64,000 bases of DNA from an uncultured Alphaproteobacteria bacterium (GTDB lineage Bacteria > Pseudomonadota > Alphaproteobacteria > Rhizobiales > Aestuariivirgaceae), in NCBI GenBank assembly GCA_937873445.1, contig CALMWF010000041.1, positions 1-64,000 of the forward strand, in the 5' to 3' direction. Both the position numbers and the translations under genes were made by a program. Below are positions 1 to 12,533 of the stretch, one piece after another. The notes below the pieces were generated by a model, which made no database searches, had not been told where the DNA came from, and saw only the letters and a list, made by a program, of their open reading frames with translations. Each line of letters begins with the position of its first letter. Position 1 is the first letter of the stretch.

Positions 1-299
1 GAGCCGCCGCCAATTCAGGCGGAACCCGGTTCATCCCCGCGTGTGCGGGGAACAGGGGGCTGATGGTCAAAAGTATCACGGCTTTGCCGGTTCATCCCCG
101 CGTGTGCGGGGAACAGACGGCCTATAGCCCAAGGCACAGCCGTGATAACGGTTCATCCCCGCGTGTGCGGGGAACAGAGCGTTTTGGACGCCGGCCTCAT
201 GACCGGGGGCGGTTCATCCCCGCGTGTGCGGGGAACAGGCGGCCCCCTCTGTCTCATCGCTCCCGTCATCCGGTTCATCCCCGCGTGTGCGGGGAACAG
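1..299 (-). CRISPR. Type I-E CRISPR array, five repeats, open at the left edge
   Basis: Five identical 29-bp repeats start at 27, 88, 149, 210 and 271. They are separated by four spacers of exactly 32 bp (56-87, 117-148, 178-209, 239-270). Positions 1-26 are part of a fifth spacer, so the array continues outside the window. Each repeat carries the 6-bp-stem core CCCCGCGTGTGCGGGG and, on the transcribed strand, ends in ATGAACCG, the counterpart of the E. coli ATAAACCG crRNA 5' handle. Transcription is therefore on the minus strand, away from cas2. The leader-proximal repeat is 271-299. Repeat and spacer lengths are standard for type I-E. The lack of repeat decay suggests an active array. Confidence 0.98.
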
Positions 300-389
300 A
301 CCAGTTACAACTATATACTATGATTGGATTTTTTCATATGCAGAAAGCCACCGATCCGGGCGTCTTTCCGGAAGGCCGCACTTAAAACT
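300..389 (-). promoter_or_regulatory. CRISPR leader
   Basis: This is the stretch between the stop codon of cas2 and the first repeat. The 50 bp nearest the array are clearly AT-richer than the surrounding genes. In type I-E loci the leader lies exactly here, holding the array promoter and the signals for spacer integration. I see AT-rich -10-like hexamers but no promoter pair I would defend, and no clear IHF site. Confidence 0.75.
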
Positions 390-4241: not shown

Positions 4242-4808
4242 TCACGTGTTCTGCGGTTCAAGAGATTTTATTTCGGCATCGTCATCGGTTGACGTCTGCC
4301 AATAATCGTAGTTCCACCTGCGTTGTGTGGTGTCATTGAAGAAGAGAATGTCACTGACGAATTTCCGCGTGTCGATGGTTTCCTTCCGCAACATCATCAA
4401 TGCGCGGCGCAGGGTGCGGATGGCGGCCTCGTAATCCTTGCTCTCCAGTGCCATGAGAATGGCGCTGAAACGCTGCGGCGAAACGTATTGCGGTCCATCG
4501 GCGGACCCGCCCTTTGCCTCGCCCGCCAGACGGGCAAAACGACGGGGAATTCCGTCGGCACCTTCCACATGAGACAGCAGGACGGCGAGCAGAATGACAT
4601 CATCATCCTTGTTCTTCAGACCTGTGTTGTGAACGGCCTGAAGCAACCGGTGGGTTTGCTGAATTCTCAGCGCGTCCAGCAACTGTGCGCACCGGCGCAG
4701 TTGCGCTGCCGCCGCGCGATCACCCTTCCTGTCGTCCCTGTCTGGGATGAGGGTGCGCCACCAGGTGAGGATCGCACCCACAGCTTCAGCAGCAATGGCT
4801 GTGCTCAT
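4242..4808 (-). CDS. cse2: Cascade small subunit Cse2 (CasB)
   Basis: Cse2 forms the inner dimer of the type I-E Cascade and stabilises the R-loop. The 188-residue helical protein has the expected size (E. coli 160). Its N-terminal TWWRTLIP helix, the basic DRKGDRAAAAQLRRC segment, and the C-terminal RRWNYDYW motif fit CasB. It overlaps cse1 by 4 bp and is followed after 14 bp by cas7e. Confidence 0.93.
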   Translation of the reverse strand: MSTAIAAEAVGAILTWWRTLIPDRDDRKGDRAAAAQLRRCAQLLDALRIQQTHRLLQAVHNTGLKNKDDDVILLAVLLSHVEGADGIPRRFARLAGEAKGGSADGPQYVSPQRFSAILMALESKDYEAAIRTLRRALMMLRKETIDTRKFVSDILFFNDTTQRRWNYDYWQTSTDDDAEIKSLEPQNT

Positions 4809-6481
4809 GACTTCTTCTCCTTGGTCTTGGTCTTGGTTTTTGCCTTGGCCGCCTTCTTCTCCGGCAAGGGCAGTTGCAGCGTGGTGAAGAGACGTTCACC
4901 AGCCTTGCCCCAACCGCTGAAGCCCGCCATCATATGTCCGTGGGCCAGCGCCATGCGCCGGGCCAGCGTCGGATCGCGGCCGGGGGCAGGCAGAACGCGC
5001 TGGAAAATTTCGCCTGCCACCTTTTGCATTTCCTTCAACCAGCTTCGGGCCAGACCCGCCCTCTCCTGATCGGGCTTTTCGAGAAGACTGGCCAATGCGC
5101 GATGAAAAGCCCTTTCGGTGTTTTCGTAGAACGCCATGCGGCTTTCATCAAAGAGGCCAGCGTCCAGTGACGGCTTGGCACTGTCAGAGAACAGCGCTTC
5201 ACGGAGGGCACTGCGCAGAATGATGTGCGCAGCATCACCAGCGTTGGCAAAGCCGATGGCCGTGTTCCGCAGCCTGTCTTCAAGGATCTTGTCATCCGTC
5301 AGGTACAGGGGCTGTTCGGCCCACAGATAGCTCATTGCCTCCATGTTGCTCATGGCCCAGCCCGCAACACGAAGTATCGATGACCCATAGACGTGCAGGA
5401 TCATATTGGCCCGGTCACCACTGGCATCTTCCACATTCAGCGCAGGCAGAGCCAAAGCACCTTTGCCTTCATTCTGGCCAAAGGTGACGGACACCCAGTC
5501 TCGGTAACCGAAGCGGCCCGATTTGGGCTTCACTGAATAGGGCGGATCGCTTTCCTTCTGCCGCCGATAGGGTGTCAGCGGGTGGCGCCAAACGCCGTAA
5601 TTCATGCCCCAGGGCTGCTGGCTGAAGCCGGTCACCAGCCGATCCTCGGCGCCTGTCAGCGGGCAAAACCCCTGCTCATTGGAAAATACCAGCCGGATGC
5701 GCCGGGGCATGCCGAAATAGGCATGGGCGGAATGAACCGCGGAATCATGCTCCGACACTTCCCGCTCGCCATGCTCTTTGTCAGAAACAAGAGTGGGCGC
5801 TACCCAAGGGAAAACCCGCTCCGGTCTAGCAAGGGGATCATCCCAGGAAAAGAAATTCTGGCTGACATTGATGATGATCCGGTGCCACAGGGTGGAAGGA
5901 TTGCCGGGATTGGCGCCAGGAATGATCAGGGTGGTGAGTGGCCCCCCGCCACGCATGGAGGTGCGGTTGCCAGCACCGCCCGATGGCGCAAACTGCTGCA
6001 AGGCATATAGAGCCATGGCGGCGGCGGCCCGCCCCATGGCCGGATAGCGGTGGCGATGGGTGAGAAGGTCGGCGTTCTTGTTCTGGCCGTTGACGCCGGG
6101 TGTATCGATGAGCAGGGCATCGATGTCATTGGCTTCTGTTCGGGAGAACGCCTCGTAGTCCTGCATGAAAAGCGGGCCATCACCATCCAGATTGAAAAAG
6201 GGCACAATGTCTTGCACCAGACTGGCAAGGTCTTCCGCCGTTGGCAGGTTGCCCCAGAGATCTTCCAACGACACAGTGTTGGAAGCAGAGATGTGTGAGA
6301 GGGCCACCGACAGAACGCCGATGCAGAATTCATAGGAAGCAATGTTGAAATCAGGCCGTGGCCAGCAGAAGTCCACCGGCGGATCATCCGCCACCGTCAA
6401 TTCGGTGAAACGGATGAGACTGGTGCGGCCAGACCGCCTCACCACCGGAAAAAGCGGATCTACAAGAAGGTTGTAGGGCAT
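4805..6481 (-). CDS. cse1: Cascade large subunit Cse1 (CasA/Cas8e)
   Basis: Cse1 recognises the PAM and recruits Cas3. The protein has about 558 residues, longer than the 502 of E. coli. It begins MPYNLLVDPLFPVVRR, matching the family opening (NLLxDxxxPV), which is why I prefer the ATG at 6481 over the in-frame ATG at 6496. MRGGGPLTTLI matches the loop found in E. coli CasA. A lysine-rich tail (about 15 residues) closes the protein. Neither candidate start has a good Shine-Dalgarno sequence, while a strong one sits about 110 bp upstream at a five-codon open frame. It is the first gene of the cse1-cas2 operon, which is likely controlled from the gap at 6482-6898. Confidence 0.96.
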   Translation of the reverse strand: MPYNLLVDPLFPVVRRSGRTSLIRFTELTVADDPPVDFCWPRPDFNIASYEFCIGVLSVALSHISASNTVSLEDLWGNLPTAEDLASLVQDIVPFFNLDGDGPLFMQDYEAFSRTEANDIDALLIDTPGVNGQNKNADLLTHRHRYPAMGRAAAAMALYALQQFAPSGGAGNRTSMRGGGPLTTLIIPGANPGNPSTLWHRIIINVSQNFFSWDDPLARPERVFPWVAPTLVSDKEHGEREVSEHDSAVHSAHAYFGMPRRIRLVFSNEQGFCPLTGAEDRLVTGFSQQPWGMNYGVWRHPLTPYRRQKESDPPYSVKPKSGRFGYRDWVSVTFGQNEGKGALALPALNVEDASGDRANMILHVYGSSILRVAGWAMSNMEAMSYLWAEQPLYLTDDKILEDRLRNTAIGFANAGDAAHIILRSALREALFSDSAKPSLDAGLFDESRMAFYENTERAFHRALASLLEKPDQERAGLARSWLKEMQKVAGEIFQRVLPAPGRDPTLARRMALAHGHMMAGFSGWGKAGERLFTTLQLPLPEKKAAKAKTKTKTKEKKS

Positions 6482-6567
6482 GGAACACTCGCGCATTGTC
6501 CAGCCATCACGAAAAAGAGGCTGGACCGATTCAGGATGATCGGCTAAGCGCGGTCACAGACCGCAAG

Positions 6568-6585
6568 TCAGGGTAAGGCGCTCAT
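6568..6585 (-). CDS. Possible five-codon leader or minitoxin ORF
   Basis: On the minus strand GAGAGGTG lies 7 bp before an ATG that opens a frame of five codons (M-S-A-L-P) and then stops. It is the strongest ribosome-binding site between the cas promoter and cse1. It is not in frame with cse1. It could be a leader peptide, a CreT-like mini-ORF, or chance. There is no conservation evidence in a single sequence. Confidence 0.25.
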   Translation of the reverse strand: MSALP

Positions 6586-6655
6586 GCGAGTTCACCTCTC
6601 TTTCTTGGCCGGGCTGATTGTTATCCAGACACACAACCTGGCGTGGTTCCTGTAG

Positions 6656-6683
6656 GGGGCTCCTTCTGGTAAGAAGGAGCCCC
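6656..6683 (-). other. 12-bp perfect hairpin in the predicted cse1 operon leader
   Basis: GGGGCTCCTTCT pairs perfectly with AGAAGGAGCCCC around a 4-nt loop. On the minus strand the hairpin would lie about 25 nt inside the predicted cse1 mRNA. It is followed by CTACAGG, not by a T tract, so it is not a standard terminator for the cas operon. The plus strand also lacks a clear T run behind it. It may stabilise or attenuate the mRNA. Confidence 0.6.
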
Positions 6684-6713
6684 TTCGCATTTTATGCGAC
6701 TGAGTCGAGGGCG

Positions 6714-6741
6714 ATTGTAAAGATTTTGGCACCGCAGTAAA
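6714..6741 (-). promoter_or_regulatory. Predicted promoter of the cse1-cas2 operon
   Basis: On the minus strand TTTACT (6741-6736) and TACAAT (6719-6714) are separated by 16 bp. They match the sigma-70 consensus at 4/6 and 5/6 positions. This is the best promoter I find between cas3 and cse1. The start site would be near 6707, giving a long untranslated leader of about 225 nt. Most of the element is covered by the pseudo-protospacer at 6724-6745. Confidence 0.55.
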
Positions 6742-6745
6742 GCTT
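6724..6745 (-). promoter_or_regulatory. Pseudo-protospacer with AAG PAM for the CreR-like guide
   Basis: On the minus strand AAG (6745-6743) is followed by CTTTACTGCGGTGCC. The pseudo-spacer at 6894-6874 reads CTTTAGTGCGGGGCA. Over 18 positions 15 agree. The mismatches are at 6, 12 and 15, and positions 6 and 12 are bases that type I-E Cascade flips out and does not read. AAG is the classical type I-E PAM on this strand. Binding here would cover the -35 box and spacer of the predicted cas promoter. Confidence 0.7.
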
Positions 6746-6844
6746 TTTTATTTGGGGGAGTTTTTCCCCAGGCACGCCCCCAATAAGCTCCTTCGGTGCA
6801 GGATTTTGCGGCCAATTCGCAATTCAGCCGCAGCGGTACGTTCC

Positions 6845-6923
6845 CAATTGGACCCCGTGTTTACGGGGAAGGCTTATTTTGCCCCGCACTAAAGCGGTTC
6901 ATCCCCGCGTTGGCGAAGATGAG
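6845..6923 (-). ncRNA. CreR/CreA-like cas-regulating RNA: degenerate mini-array
   Basis: Two diverged copies of the CRISPR repeat lie in the same orientation as the array. The first transcribed copy (6923-6895) matches the repeat at 23 of 29 positions and keeps the full ATGAACCG handle. Its stem survives in RNA as CUUCGC/GCGGGG with two U-G wobbles. The second copy (6873-6845) is more diverged, but its stem is intact as CCCCGU/ACGGGG, with the closing pair changed on both sides. The pseudo-spacer between them is 21 nt, not 32. A handle kept in copy one, a hairpin kept in copy two, decay elsewhere, and partial match to the cas promoter are the known hallmarks of CreR/CreA guides. No separate promoter was identified. 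It may be cut from the cas3 transcript. Confidence 0.8.
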
Positions 6924-9730
6924 ACGCATAGACCCAAATTTGCAGCGTATGTCAATGTCGCAGACCCGGCGGCGATGCTCACAGATCCGTTGTGCACTTC
7001 GGCAATGGGGATTGTTTGCTCGAATTCTGGCCAGTTGCATCGGACGTCCGCGATCAGGGCAGCGTTTTCATTCGACAATGACACCTTCTCCCACATTTTT
7101 TTGCGCACGCTGACTTCCGACAATTCCCAGAGCAGACGGTCATCGGCGCCGTCCTTCTGGAAATAGGGAATGAGCCTGTTGCCCTGCCGCCGCGCCAGCC
7201 GGATGGTGACGGTGGCTTCGCCGTCTCTGGTCGGAACGGTTTCATCATTGTTCACGATGGCTTGGTCCAGATTGGAATAGCCCCTTTCAGGGCCAATGAC
7301 ATTCCATGTCGCCAGAGACACCTGCGCGCCACGTTCGCCCGCAACTTTTCCAGACCTTGCCTCAAGGCAATCCGGCACCCTTTCGGCCGCCTCGCCATAC
7401 ACTCCCTCCACCAGGGGGCGCAAATCGTCTGGCACTGAAATGCGCCCGGCGGCAAACAGAAGCCTGGCGCTACGCCACATGACGGTCGGATCACGATAAA
7501 TAGCCGCCGCTTTGCCAAGAACTGGCTCCAGCCACTTGTCATCATGCACATGCGCGGGATCGGGAGAGACAATGGCAATGACCGGCTCCGGTAGAGGGCG
7601 GCCGGATGCTGGTCTCTGGTCCATGTGCCGCCACAGGCGGCCGGCGCGCTGGATAATGAGATCAACCGGAGCGAGATCGGAGATGATGAAATCGAAATCA
7701 AGATCCAAGCTCTGCTCAATAACCTGAGTTGCCACCACAATATGCCCGGCCCGATCCTGCGCGTGTGAATCCTTGCCGAAGCGCGCCAGCACATCAGCTT
7801 CAATGGCCATGCGGTCACCCATGGCAAATCGTGCATGAAAAAGCGTCATCTTGTCAGCCTTCTGGCCTAGCTCAGCAAGCTGCTCATAAACCGCGATGGC
7901 CTCATCCACCGCATTGCAAATAATCGCAACGGCCGCGCCCTTCTCTGCCGCGCCACGGGCCATGGCCATGGCGGCCTGACGGTCTGAAGCGCGCTTGACT
8001 TGAACGGTGCGTGCCAGGCGCCTGTCAAAGGCCACCGGCATATGATGAATCATGGGGTCGGGCGTCAGACAAACCGAGGTCAGCAGGGGATAGGCTGCAG
8101 ATCCTTCTGCCGCCGTCTGCTTCGCCACAACCTTGTTGGCAAAACGATTGCCGCCTAGCCGCCTCCGGAGAAGGGGCTTGGCAAAGGCGTCGGTCATCCG
8201 GTCACGCAAGGTCTGGGGCAAGGTGGCAGAAAGAACGATGGCCGAACCCCCGTTCATGGCATGAACCTGCAACAGCGTCTCCAGCTCCTTGCCCATGTAG
8301 GCGTCGAAGGCGTGAGCCTCATCCACAATAAGCACCCGGCTGCTGAGCGCAAACTGGCGCAACGTCAGGAACCTCTTGCGAATTATGCCAAGGAAAGCCT
8401 GGTCGATGGTGCCCACGCCGATGTCGGCGAAAAGCGCAAGACGGCGGGAGTCAGCAATCCAGCCGTTGCAGAAGGCGCTGGTCGAATCCTGATCAGCGCC
8501 TTCTGCCTGAAGCGCCGCAACGCGCCGCGCCAGGCTGGACCGGCCATGGGCCAAAACCAGAGAGGGCTTATCACCCTTTCCCGCAAAGAAATTCTGATAT
8601 TGGCGGAGCAGTCGGCCATGCATGGCATTGGCCGTGGCTGTGGTTGGAAGGGCAAAGTAGAGACCCTCCGCCTTGCCCCTCGCCATGAGGCGTGCGGCCA
8701 AGAGAAGAGCGGCTTCGGTTTTTCCCGATCCTGTGGTGTCTTCGATGATGAAGAGCTGGGGGCCGTCATCGCTGATGTCGGCTTGCGCGGCCATGCTTTG
8801 CATGGGGCGCGGTGCCGCTGCACAGGGAAGATCAAGAGTTGTGTAATCAGGCGCGGAACAAGGGGTGCTCGCCACCAAACCTTTGGCTTTAAGGGCTTCT
8901 GCGGCACGTTCTTTTGCCTTCGCCCAATAGGCGGCGGCTGACCCGTTGGTCTGTGTCGTGGCAAGGATCGGGAAGAAGGCTTCGTCCGAGCCAACCCAGT
9001 CGGCCACCGTAAGAAGGCCGTTCAACGCAAAGCTGGCTCGGCACAGACCATCTGGCGTCACTTCCGGCAGCGTCGTCACGCCGGAATGGTCGCGCATGAT
9101 TTCTACAGCAGTGATGGCCGCCGCGATGCAGGGCGGGGTGAATGCTTCGGGGTGACTGTGCAGAAGAACGGGGTTGCTGGCGTTTAGCCTGTCAGGTGCC
9201 AGGCCATGGTGGCCCGCCACCAGAGCCTCCAGTTCCTGATGAAGACCGTTCAGGCCGGAAAGGAGGGACTCAATGATGGCGCGGATTGGACCATGACGCA
9301 GGTAGAGCGCCGAGCTTTGCCAATGACCAGGGCCCGGCGGCACATCGGCCGGCTGTAACTTCCCGAGAATGGCCTCCGGCCAGCAAACGCCGCTCTTTGC
9401 CTGAAATGGAACCGTGAATTTGCCGATATCGTGCAGGCCTGCCAGGAAGGCCACCATTCCAGGGACTTTTTCAATTCCTATCTGCAACTGCTGAGACAAG
9501 CGGCTGCACATATGCCGGTTGATGATGGTCAATTGCCAGGCGACAGCGGCAACATCCATGAGATGATGCAGGATGGGTTTGCTCACCACATTTCCGTCGG
9601 CGGCGATCCGCGTCTTTCCCCAAAAAAGATAGGAATCAACGGCACCGCTTGTAGAAAGGTCTGTATTGCCCAGCTCCATCGGACCGAATGATGCCCGAAG
9701 GACAAAAGGAATGCTTGCTCTTCTTTCCAT
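6899..9730 (-). CDS. cas3: CRISPR-associated nuclease-helicase Cas3, type I-E
   Basis: Cas3 unwinds and degrades the target DNA after recruitment by Cascade. The 943-residue protein has an N-terminal HD nuclease domain: HH at 55-56, the HD pair at 100-101 within LHDIGKF, and GHH at about 173-175. A superfamily 2 helicase follows with Walker A TTGSGKTEA at 332-340, the DEAH box at 470-473, SATLP, and QVIEQSLDLDFD. All key residues are present. It is transcribed separately from the Cascade operon, 400 bp upstream of cse1. Its last codons and stop lie inside the first degenerate repeat of the CreR-like element, so that repeat is both coding and structured. The start is uncertain; an in-frame ATG at 9679 is an alternative. 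Confidence 0.96.
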   Translation of the reverse strand: MERRASIPFVLRASFGPMELGNTDLSTSGAVDSYLFWGKTRIAADGNVVSKPILHHLMDVAAVAWQLTIINRHMCSRLSQQLQIGIEKVPGMVAFLAGLHDIGKFTVPFQAKSGVCWPEAILGKLQPADVPPGPGHWQSSALYLRHGPIRAIIESLLSGLNGLHQELEALVAGHHGLAPDRLNASNPVLLHSHPEAFTPPCIAAAITAVEIMRDHSGVTTLPEVTPDGLCRASFALNGLLTVADWVGSDEAFFPILATTQTNGSAAAYWAKAKERAAEALKAKGLVASTPCSAPDYTTLDLPCAAAPRPMQSMAAQADISDDGPQLFIIEDTTGSGKTEAALLLAARLMARGKAEGLYFALPTTATANAMHGRLLRQYQNFFAGKGDKPSLVLAHGRSSLARRVAALQAEGADQDSTSAFCNGWIADSRRLALFADIGVGTIDQAFLGIIRKRFLTLRQFALSSRVLIVDEAHAFDAYMGKELETLLQVHAMNGGSAIVLSATLPQTLRDRMTDAFAKPLLRRRLGGNRFANKVVAKQTAAEGSAAYPLLTSVCLTPDPMIHHMPVAFDRRLARTVQVKRASDRQAAMAMARGAAEKGAAVAIICNAVDEAIAVYEQLAELGQKADKMTLFHARFAMGDRMAIEADVLARFGKDSHAQDRAGHIVVATQVIEQSLDLDFDFIISDLAPVDLIIQRAGRLWRHMDQRPASGRPLPEPVIAIVSPDPAHVHDDKWLEPVLGKAAAIYRDPTVMWRSARLLFAAGRISVPDDLRPLVEGVYGEAAERVPDCLEARSGKVAGERGAQVSLATWNVIGPERGYSNLDQAIVNNDETVPTRDGEATVTIRLARRQGNRLIPYFQKDGADDRLLWELSEVSVRKKMWEKVSLSNENAALIADVRCNWPEFEQTIPIAEVHNGSVSIAAGSATLTYAANLGLCVSSSPTRG

Positions 9731-12371: not shown

Positions 12372-12520
12372 CATCAGCCCGAAAAGTGCGCAGCGGTTTT
12401 CGGACAAGCTGATGCGCGCCCCACCATCAGCCCGAAAAGTGCGCAGCGGTTTTCGGACAAGCTGATGCGCGCCCCACCATCAGCCCGAAAAGTGCGCAGC
12501 GGTTTTCGGACAAGCTGATG
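12372..12520. repeat. Three perfect tandem copies of a 43-bp palindromic element (53-bp period)
   Basis: Copies at 12372-12414, 12425-12467 and 12478-12520 are identical, as are the two 10-bp linkers CGCGCCCCAC. Each copy is a palindrome: outer arms CATCAGC/GCTGATG and inner arms CCGAAAA/TTTTCGG. The inner core is a widespread intergenic palindrome of Hyphomicrobiales. The element lies between two convergent genes and may also terminate transcription. Perfect identity suggests recent amplification. Confidence 0.95.
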
Positions 12521-12533
12521 GGCAAAGACTCCT

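Follow-up and report, generated by a model that had tools for sequence, protein, structure and literature searches.

The gap between cas3 and cas8e in the window, by which we mean the whole 64,000-nucleotide stretch of alphaproteobacterial DNA analysed here, contains a repeat-guide-repeat unit (creA) whose guide matches, directly beside an AAG, a site lying over a promoter upstream of cas8e; the same layout recurs in 21 other loci of the window's class, and the differences between guide and target are concentrated at positions 6 and 12. We lean towards the view that the gap holds a CreTA-type module, in which Cascade guided by creA would block the promoter of a CreT-like leader, on a transcript that probably also carries the cas operon. 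The comparison alone indicates that promoter control by RNA-guided Cascade is selected for in many type I-E systems within the class of the window. The 22 loci, of which three are carried by named plasmids, allow addiction (CreTA) and feedback (CreR) to be compared side by side.

The creA unit and its target in the cas3-cas8e gap

The locus is a type I-E CRISPR-Cas system in which a cas gene set and an array are present. On the minus strand, cas3 is followed, after a gap of 402 bases, by cas8e, cse2, cas7e, cas5e, cas6e, cas1 and cas2. The last seven proteins pass the cut-offs of the type I-E models, and the cas3 product passes two general Cas3 domain models (helicase and HD) and scores under the threshold of the full-length model NF007248. 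The genome contains 40 copies of the repeat, located at two contig ends. No ORF longer than 64 codons was found on the minus strand of the gap, and an Rfam search of the gap region returned a single match at chance level. Elsewhere in the window, at 12372-12530, a 53-base unit is present in three tandem copies just past a 359-codon ORF.

Table 1. Features of the type I-E locus in the window, with positions counted from its first letter
Feature	Position	Strand	Remarks
cas3	6899..9730	-	last codons extend into psiR1
Putative creA promoter	6927..6955	-	TTGACA (6955-6950) N17 TCTATG (6932-6927), inside the 3' end of cas3
psiR1	6923-6895	-	CTCATCTTCGCCAACGCGGGGATGAACCG; degenerate CRISPR repeat with intact 8-nt handle AUGAACCG
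Guide (psi-spacer)	6894-6874	-	CTTTAGTGCGGGGCAAAATAA; 21 nt, not the full 32
psiR2	6873-6845	-	GCCTTCCCCGTAAACACGGGGTCCAATTG; hairpin kept, handle largely lost
AAG at PAM position	6745-6743	-	AAG in 19 of 22 loci, the PAM being partly used for their selection
Protospacer-like target	6742-6722	-	CTTTACTGCGGTGCCAAAATC; 15 of 18 identical to guide
Target promoter, TTTACT-N16-TACAAT	6741-6714	-	sole promoter-like site found in 6480-7000
Leader hairpin, 12 bp	6683-6656	-	no T-run on the minus strand
Shine-Dalgarno GAGAGGT	6600-6594	-	ahead of candidate creT
Candidate creT mini-ORF	6585-6568	-	ATG AGC GCC TTA CCC TGA (MSALP); only mini-ORF in the leader led by a Shine-Dalgarno
Hairpin, 7 bp	6549..6565	-	directly after the candidate creT mini-ORF
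cas8e (cse1)	4805..6496	-	TIGR02547, E 9.5e-60; first cas gene downstream; second possible start at 6481
CRISPR array, five repeats	26..301	-	near contig end; more copies at the end of contig C18

The 3' end of cas3 and the gap after it carry, in transcriptional order, psiR1, the guide, psiR2, the AAG and then the protospacer-like site over the promoter (Table 1). psiR1 is identical to the array repeat at 23 of 29 positions (counted manually); its predicted fold is a hairpin of 10 bp (-13.9 kcal/mol, z -4.85), and psiR2 folds into a 6-bp stem (-9.9 kcal/mol, z -2.79) in which one C-G pair has become U-A. Two degenerate repeats flank the guide with the handle kept in psiR1, the arrangement by which the creA of a CreTA system is recognised, and haloarchaeal creA has likewise been described as retaining the handle in psiR1 while that of psiR2 is degenerate (PMC9458426). 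The stop codon of cas3, TGA (6901-6899), sits inside the handle of psiR1. The stop of the upstream gene is the TGA of this handle in 4 of the 17 loci of the strict scan described below, namely the window (L001), L020, L080 and L086, where the upstream gene was called cas3 by model (L001), by annotation (L080, L086) or by assumption (L020). Because a perfect TTGACA recurs 31-33 bases ahead of psiR1 in 7 of the 22 loci, window included, creA may have a transcription start of its own; the promoter scan of 6480-7000 did not report this putative promoter, the -10 of which is poor.

The initial annotation had proposed that the guide agrees with the cas promoter at 15 of the first 18 positions, next to an AAG, and that the mismatches at 6 and 12 fall on bases flipped out in type I-E Cascade. 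Comparison of guide and target bore this out. The mismatches lie at positions 6, 12 and 15, the AAG stands directly at the PAM position, the protospacer covers the -35 box and most of the spacer of the promoter, and 6 and 12 belong to the flipped bases of the type I-E crRNA, which are 6, 12, 18, 24 and 30 (PMC5965380). The promoter scan returned this one site, against a mean of 0.2 in shuffled sequences. Seed positions 1-5 and 7-11 of the guide match the target at 10 of 10 positions, flanked by AAG and overlapping the predicted promoter, which is the pairing pattern of CreTA.

A chance match of the guide to the promoter was ruled out by shuffles, by a pattern search of the genome and by the recurrence across loci. 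At least 15 of 18 matches were obtained in 32 of 50,000 Markov shuffles of 6497-6873, counting either strand and with no PAM required. The pattern AWG-CTTTANTGCGGNGC has a single mismatch-free occurrence in the genome (2.58 Mb), one place with one mismatch (ATG-CTTTGTTGCGGTGC, contig C35) and eight with two; the reversed control pattern was found at 6 places in all, genome-wide. Blastn of the array (2111 bases) against phages gave three records, two of them consisting of scattered pieces at 68 and 76% identity and the third of a 37-base stretch with E 0.05. The PAM assignment rests on the targets of the guides and not on array spacers.

Recurrence of the layout, mismatch register and guide lengths

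Type I-E Cas8e genes were gathered from relatives, the order, the class, the phylum, further groups and plasmids. After removal of repeat fetches of the same place, 99 regions upstream of cas8e were oriented and scanned, 71 of them from within the window's class and 28 from outside it (25 genomic regions and 3 plasmids). The combination of psiR1, a guide and, downstream on that strand, a target flanked by a PAM was found in 22 of the 99 regions, the window included (17 in a strict scan and 5 in a relaxed scan). All 22 are among the 71 regions of the window's class; none of the 28 regions outside it was positive, which argues only weakly for absence because the handle consensus was modelled on the repeats of this class. 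Regions that start inside cas8e or at contig ends are uninformative when negative, which holds certainly for L025 and probably for L026, L103 and L120. Among the genomes of the same genus, Cas8e was found in 1 of 36, at 39% identity, and that locus (L002) is without a repeat-like site.

An earlier loose scan matched 23 of 120 shuffled regions, and loose matches without later confirmation were dropped. The strict scan initially gave 22 loci, of which 17 were kept; L022, L038, L083, L108 and L116, as scored there, were dropped for lying on the other strand, for distance from the second repeat or for weakness, and the second matches of L005 and L020 were dropped as well. Before dropping, 41 of 990 shuffled regions matched at the strict threshold, or about 4 per 99; this shuffle control belongs to the strict scan and not to the relaxed one, which added L007, L013 and L099 together with L022 and L108, both with a different guide than before, and from which L085, L111 and L118 were dropped. 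L005 (p 0.06) and L020 (p 0.09) are weak when taken singly. Three of the positive loci are on plasmids, all alphaproteobacterial: L080 in Paracoccus aestuarii, L081 in Frigidibacter mobilis and L086 in Acidiphilium cryptum.

The guides are mostly unrelated between loci, the homologous groups being L014/L016 and L023/L094/L097, and in these related loci guide and target change together (position 5 in L014/L016; positions 1, 4 and 15 in L023 versus L094/L097). L015 is of one genus with L014/L016 and has similar flanks and a different guide, each guide having its own matching target. The 900 bases upstream of cas8e in L035 contain both a creA-like unit and a run of CRISPR repeats. In L003 (the same place as L018), at about -300 to -60, a psiR1-like repeat stands behind a TTGACA with no matching target. 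Between this repeat and cas8e come a small ORF and a hairpin resembling a terminator, and the repeat is perhaps a relic of creA.

Over the 22 loci, mismatches occupy 32 of the 44 cells at positions 6 and 12 versus 11 of the 220 at positions 1-5 and 7-11; these loci were selected ignoring 6 and 12, where 73% mismatch is about the level of free drift. A symmetric test was also applied, in which positions 1-14 were treated alike and at least 10 of 14 matches and an AAG or ATG were required, so that L081 (PAM AAA) falls outside. It was passed by 16 of the 99 real regions versus 20 of 1980 shuffled ones, and mismatches again fell on 6 and 12 (23 of 32 cells, versus 14 of 192 at the other twelve positions; Fisher 7e-15). 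When the real guides were kept and the downstream sequence was shuffled, 192 of 32,000 trials passed. Selection blind to the PAM (at least 12 of 14 matches) gave 13 loci, 10 with AAG, 2 with ATG and 1 with AAA. Given the recurring layout and the accumulation of mismatches at 6 and 12, binding is therefore well supported: Cascade loaded with the guide should bind the AAG site with mismatches at flipped-out bases. In the tested type I-B CreA, a change of base 6 or 12 was harmless and a change of any other of the first twelve bases abolished protection (PMC8501985). The comparison indicates that the 6-base register of Cascade is recorded by evolution in the guide-target differences that are allowed, and perhaps in guide length too.

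The distance between psiR1 and psiR2 in 21 loci is 20 (3 loci), 21 (5), 26 (3), 31 (3), 32 (5) or 33 (2), L099 (34, with a poor psiR2) being excluded from this set. Guide lengths therefore form clusters at 20-21, 26 and 31-33 nt, in steps of about 6 nt, with three loci only in the 26 class; the 21-nt guide of the window belongs to the short class. For a period of 6 the mean vector is 0.78, a value reached by 0 of 20,000 uniform draws from 19-34, and it is 0.83 in the 18 loci without homologs. Period 6 is close to the best of the periods from 4 to 11 that were tried (0.81) and not exactly the best, and much of the 6-nt periodicity is due to two clusters 11-12 nt apart. Six bases correspond to one Cas7 step, and Kuznedelov in 2016 reportedly described Cascades of altered stoichiometry on shortened spacers. 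When a Haloarcula spacer was shortened to 24 bp, repression persisted while interference and priming were lost (PMC10989794). In a limited literature search we found no description of creA guide lengths in 6-nt steps, which leaves their absence from print unproven.

The output of the target promoter

Under the favoured CreTA reading, creA (psiR1-guide-psiR2) would be transcribed from a TTGACA promoter of its own inside the 3' end of cas3. Cas6e would cut the transcript, and the crRNA-like product with its 21-nt guide would begin AUGAACCG-CUUUAGUGCGG. Cascade carrying this RNA would find the AAG at 6745-6743, pair over about 11-18 bases with 6 and 12 unpaired, and block the promoter without permitting cutting by Cas3. 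The target promoter would transcribe a CreT-like leader in which a stable hairpin precedes a Shine-Dalgarno and an ORF of five codons, one of them TTA; with Cascade lost or inhibited, the leader would be expressed and translation would be starved of a rare tRNA. The transcript probably includes the cas operon, because neither a terminator nor another promoter was seen before cas8e, and a shortage of Cascade would raise both the leader and the cas operon.

In the window, it is the hairpin, the Shine-Dalgarno and the ORF with the rarest codon, together with similar mini-ORFs in 11 of the 17 strict loci, that point to CreTA. Across 14 window genes (5562 codons), no other of the 61 sense codons is as rare as TTA. 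The mini-ORF of the window is not significant alone, as 13.8% of shuffles contain a rare-codon mini-ORF, and its one rare codon, with no tandem pair, counts against CreTA. In the survey, mini-ORFs were defined as ORFs of at most 40 codons led by a Shine-Dalgarno between target and cas8e, and five codons were counted as rare. Eleven of the 17 strict loci (window included) have such a mini-ORF, with a rare codon in 11 of 11 and two consecutive ones in 6, against shuffle expectations of 4.28, 2.46 and 0.28, respectively. Examples are ATG ACC ATC AGG ATA TAA (L020), GTG CTA AAA ATA CCC TAG (L080) and ATG GCT ATC ATA ATA (L005). Among the relaxed loci, mini-ORFs are present in L007 (with TTA) and L013 and absent from the other three; the short ORF nearest the Shine-Dalgarno in L013 contains none of the five rare codons. 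The 22 loci are divided into 13 with a mini-ORF (12 with a rare codon), 3 with a 103-codon ORF and 6 with neither. In homologous mini-ORFs about 90-150 bases upstream of cas8e, the codon pair AGA AGA of L023 corresponds in position to ATA ATA in L094/L097. The presumed tRNA target has been exchanged naturally between them, which offers a natural test of the tRNA-sequestering idea. Two tested CreT toxins carry AGA AGA or AUA AUA (PMC8501985).

Other elements of the leader vary among the loci. A hairpin of at least 7 bp between target and mini-ORF is present in only 7 of the 11 (L001, L004, L020, L023, L035, L080 and L097); that of L023 has a T-rich tail and could be a terminator ending transcription before the mini-ORF. 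After the mini-ORF, a terminator-like hairpin was flagged by script in L005, and one of 15 bp with five T was recognised by eye in L004. Read on the plus strand, the leader hairpin of the window (6654-6685) has the form of an intrinsic terminator, with 14 pairs and a T-rich tail. A lax search that did not require a -10 placed a hexamer resembling TTGACA (5 or 6 of 6) 14-33 nt past the start of the target in 13 loci out of the 21 besides the window. In the window the target is overlapped by the predicted promoter, and for the TTTACA that lies 21 nt downstream no good -10 follows at 16-18 nt. In L014, L015 and L016, from -431 relative to cas8e, the target promoter faces a conserved 103-codon ORF with a TTG start and a strong Shine-Dalgarno; the L014 product has only a weak Pfam match, to sigma-70 region 3, and may be a regulator or a CreP-like protein.

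A real possibility, which we hold tentatively, is that the unit is a CreR, through which guide-loaded Cascade represses the cas8e-cas2 promoter and so senses free Cascade, the leader ORF and hairpins being incidental or serving translation of cas8e. CreRs have been reported for type I-E (PMC13131331), and from target to cas8e the window shows one promoter and no terminator. A Shine-Dalgarno-led mini-ORF before cas8e is missing from six loci of the 22 (L022, L081, L086, L096, L099 and L108), which counts against CreTA, and these six resemble cas autorepression; the end of the target in L099 falls on the ribosome-binding region of cas8e. However, the leader of the window has the hairpin, the Shine-Dalgarno and the mini-ORF with the rarest codon, and L004 and L005, the two best-scoring Cas8e relatives with the layout, have mini-ORFs followed by terminator-like hairpins. 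The feedback loop of Cascade on the cse1-cas2 operon, as suggested in the initial annotation, is retained in part. Its target site stands, with the AAG and a 6/12 pattern that recurs in 21 other loci, mostly with different guides, but the regulated unit need not simply be cse1-cas2, since the promoter is separated from cas8e by the 12-bp hairpin, the Shine-Dalgarno and the short ORF containing the rarest codon. Feedback on the cas operon may also occur alongside a CreTA output, because the stretch from the mini-ORF to cas8e showed neither a terminator nor a second promoter. Both outputs, toxin and cas autorepression, seem to exist in the family, and the window may combine them.

A bolder proposal, which we consider rather unlikely, is that the guides of alphaproteobacterial type I-E systems have shrunk in whole Cas7 steps (32, 26 and 20 nt, each +/-1), that the smaller Cascade represses and cannot license Cas3, and that the promoter of the window serves a TTA mini-toxin and the cas operon together, CreTA and CreR in one. 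If this were true, a single event, Cascade shortage, would both arrest the cell and refill the cas genes.

It is very improbable that the unit is a decayed or self-acquired spacer, that is, an ectopic repeat-spacer unit matching the promoter by accident and with no present function. Both repeats are indeed degenerate and the match is just 15 of 18, but the degeneration is selective: the handle of psiR1 and both hairpins survive and a C-G pair is replaced by U-A, in keeping with published creA (PMC9458426). The layout is also shared by 22 of the 99 regions, with position-specific mismatches. That the leader of the window is the remnant of a longer small gene, like the 103-codon ORF (weak sigma-70 region 3) under the target promoter of L014-L016 or the small ORF with its terminator-like hairpin behind the repeat-like site of L003, is scarcely credible, as the minus-strand ORFs of the window's gap are all of 64 codons or fewer.

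Comparison with known CreTA and CreR systems

CreTA has been tested in type I-B (PMC8501985) and type I-F (PMC10097628) systems. In a limited literature search, with the originals of Li et al. 2021 and Liu et al. 2023 outside its scope, we found no report of CreA in Alphaproteobacteria. The candidate in the window resembles the type I-B CreTA of Haloarcula hispanica and Halobacterium hubeiense in its 1-5 plus 7-11 seed beside a PAM over a promoter, its candidate rare-codon mini-ORF and its hairpin, and it shares the psiR1-guide-psiR2 order with the creA of H. hubeiense (PMC8501985). The type I-B systems are described with an archaeal promoter, the PAM TTC, tandem AGA or AUA codons and a hairpin after the mini-ORF (PMC8501985), whereas the window has a type I-E system, AAG, one TTA and a larger hairpin ahead of the mini-ORF.

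Within the same subtype, Citrobacter rodentium has a tested toxin, repressed by Cascade, in its cas3-casA gap; the creA there is putative, and repression of this toxin needs Cascade and not cas3 (PMC12055562). Subtype, gap and a type I-E PAM are common to this CreTA and the window. The C. rodentium system differs in that its putative creA is on the strand opposite to the toxin, its toxin ORF of 96 bp is described as free of rare codons and its PAM is ATG (PMC12055562). The type I-F CreTA of Acinetobacter is similar in its site in the gap (there cas3-csy1), its two psiR and its Shine-Dalgarno-led mini-ORF downstream of the target; it differs from the window in subtype, in its 33-bp ORF and in a creA divergent from creT (PMC10097628).

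CreR (Liu et al. 2023 Cell Host Microbe) has been reported for types I-B, I-E and V-A (PMC13131331, PMC12737573). CreR is described as a small guide RNA with partial complementarity to a cas promoter (PMC13131331, PMC12737573), which the predicted guide RNA of the window would resemble. CreRs are generally described without a toxin gene, whereas the window has a candidate mini-ORF between the target and the cas genes. What is new with respect to these known kinds, CreTA and CreR, is the spread of the layout in the window's class and the clustering of guide lengths at 20-21, 26 and 31-33 nt.
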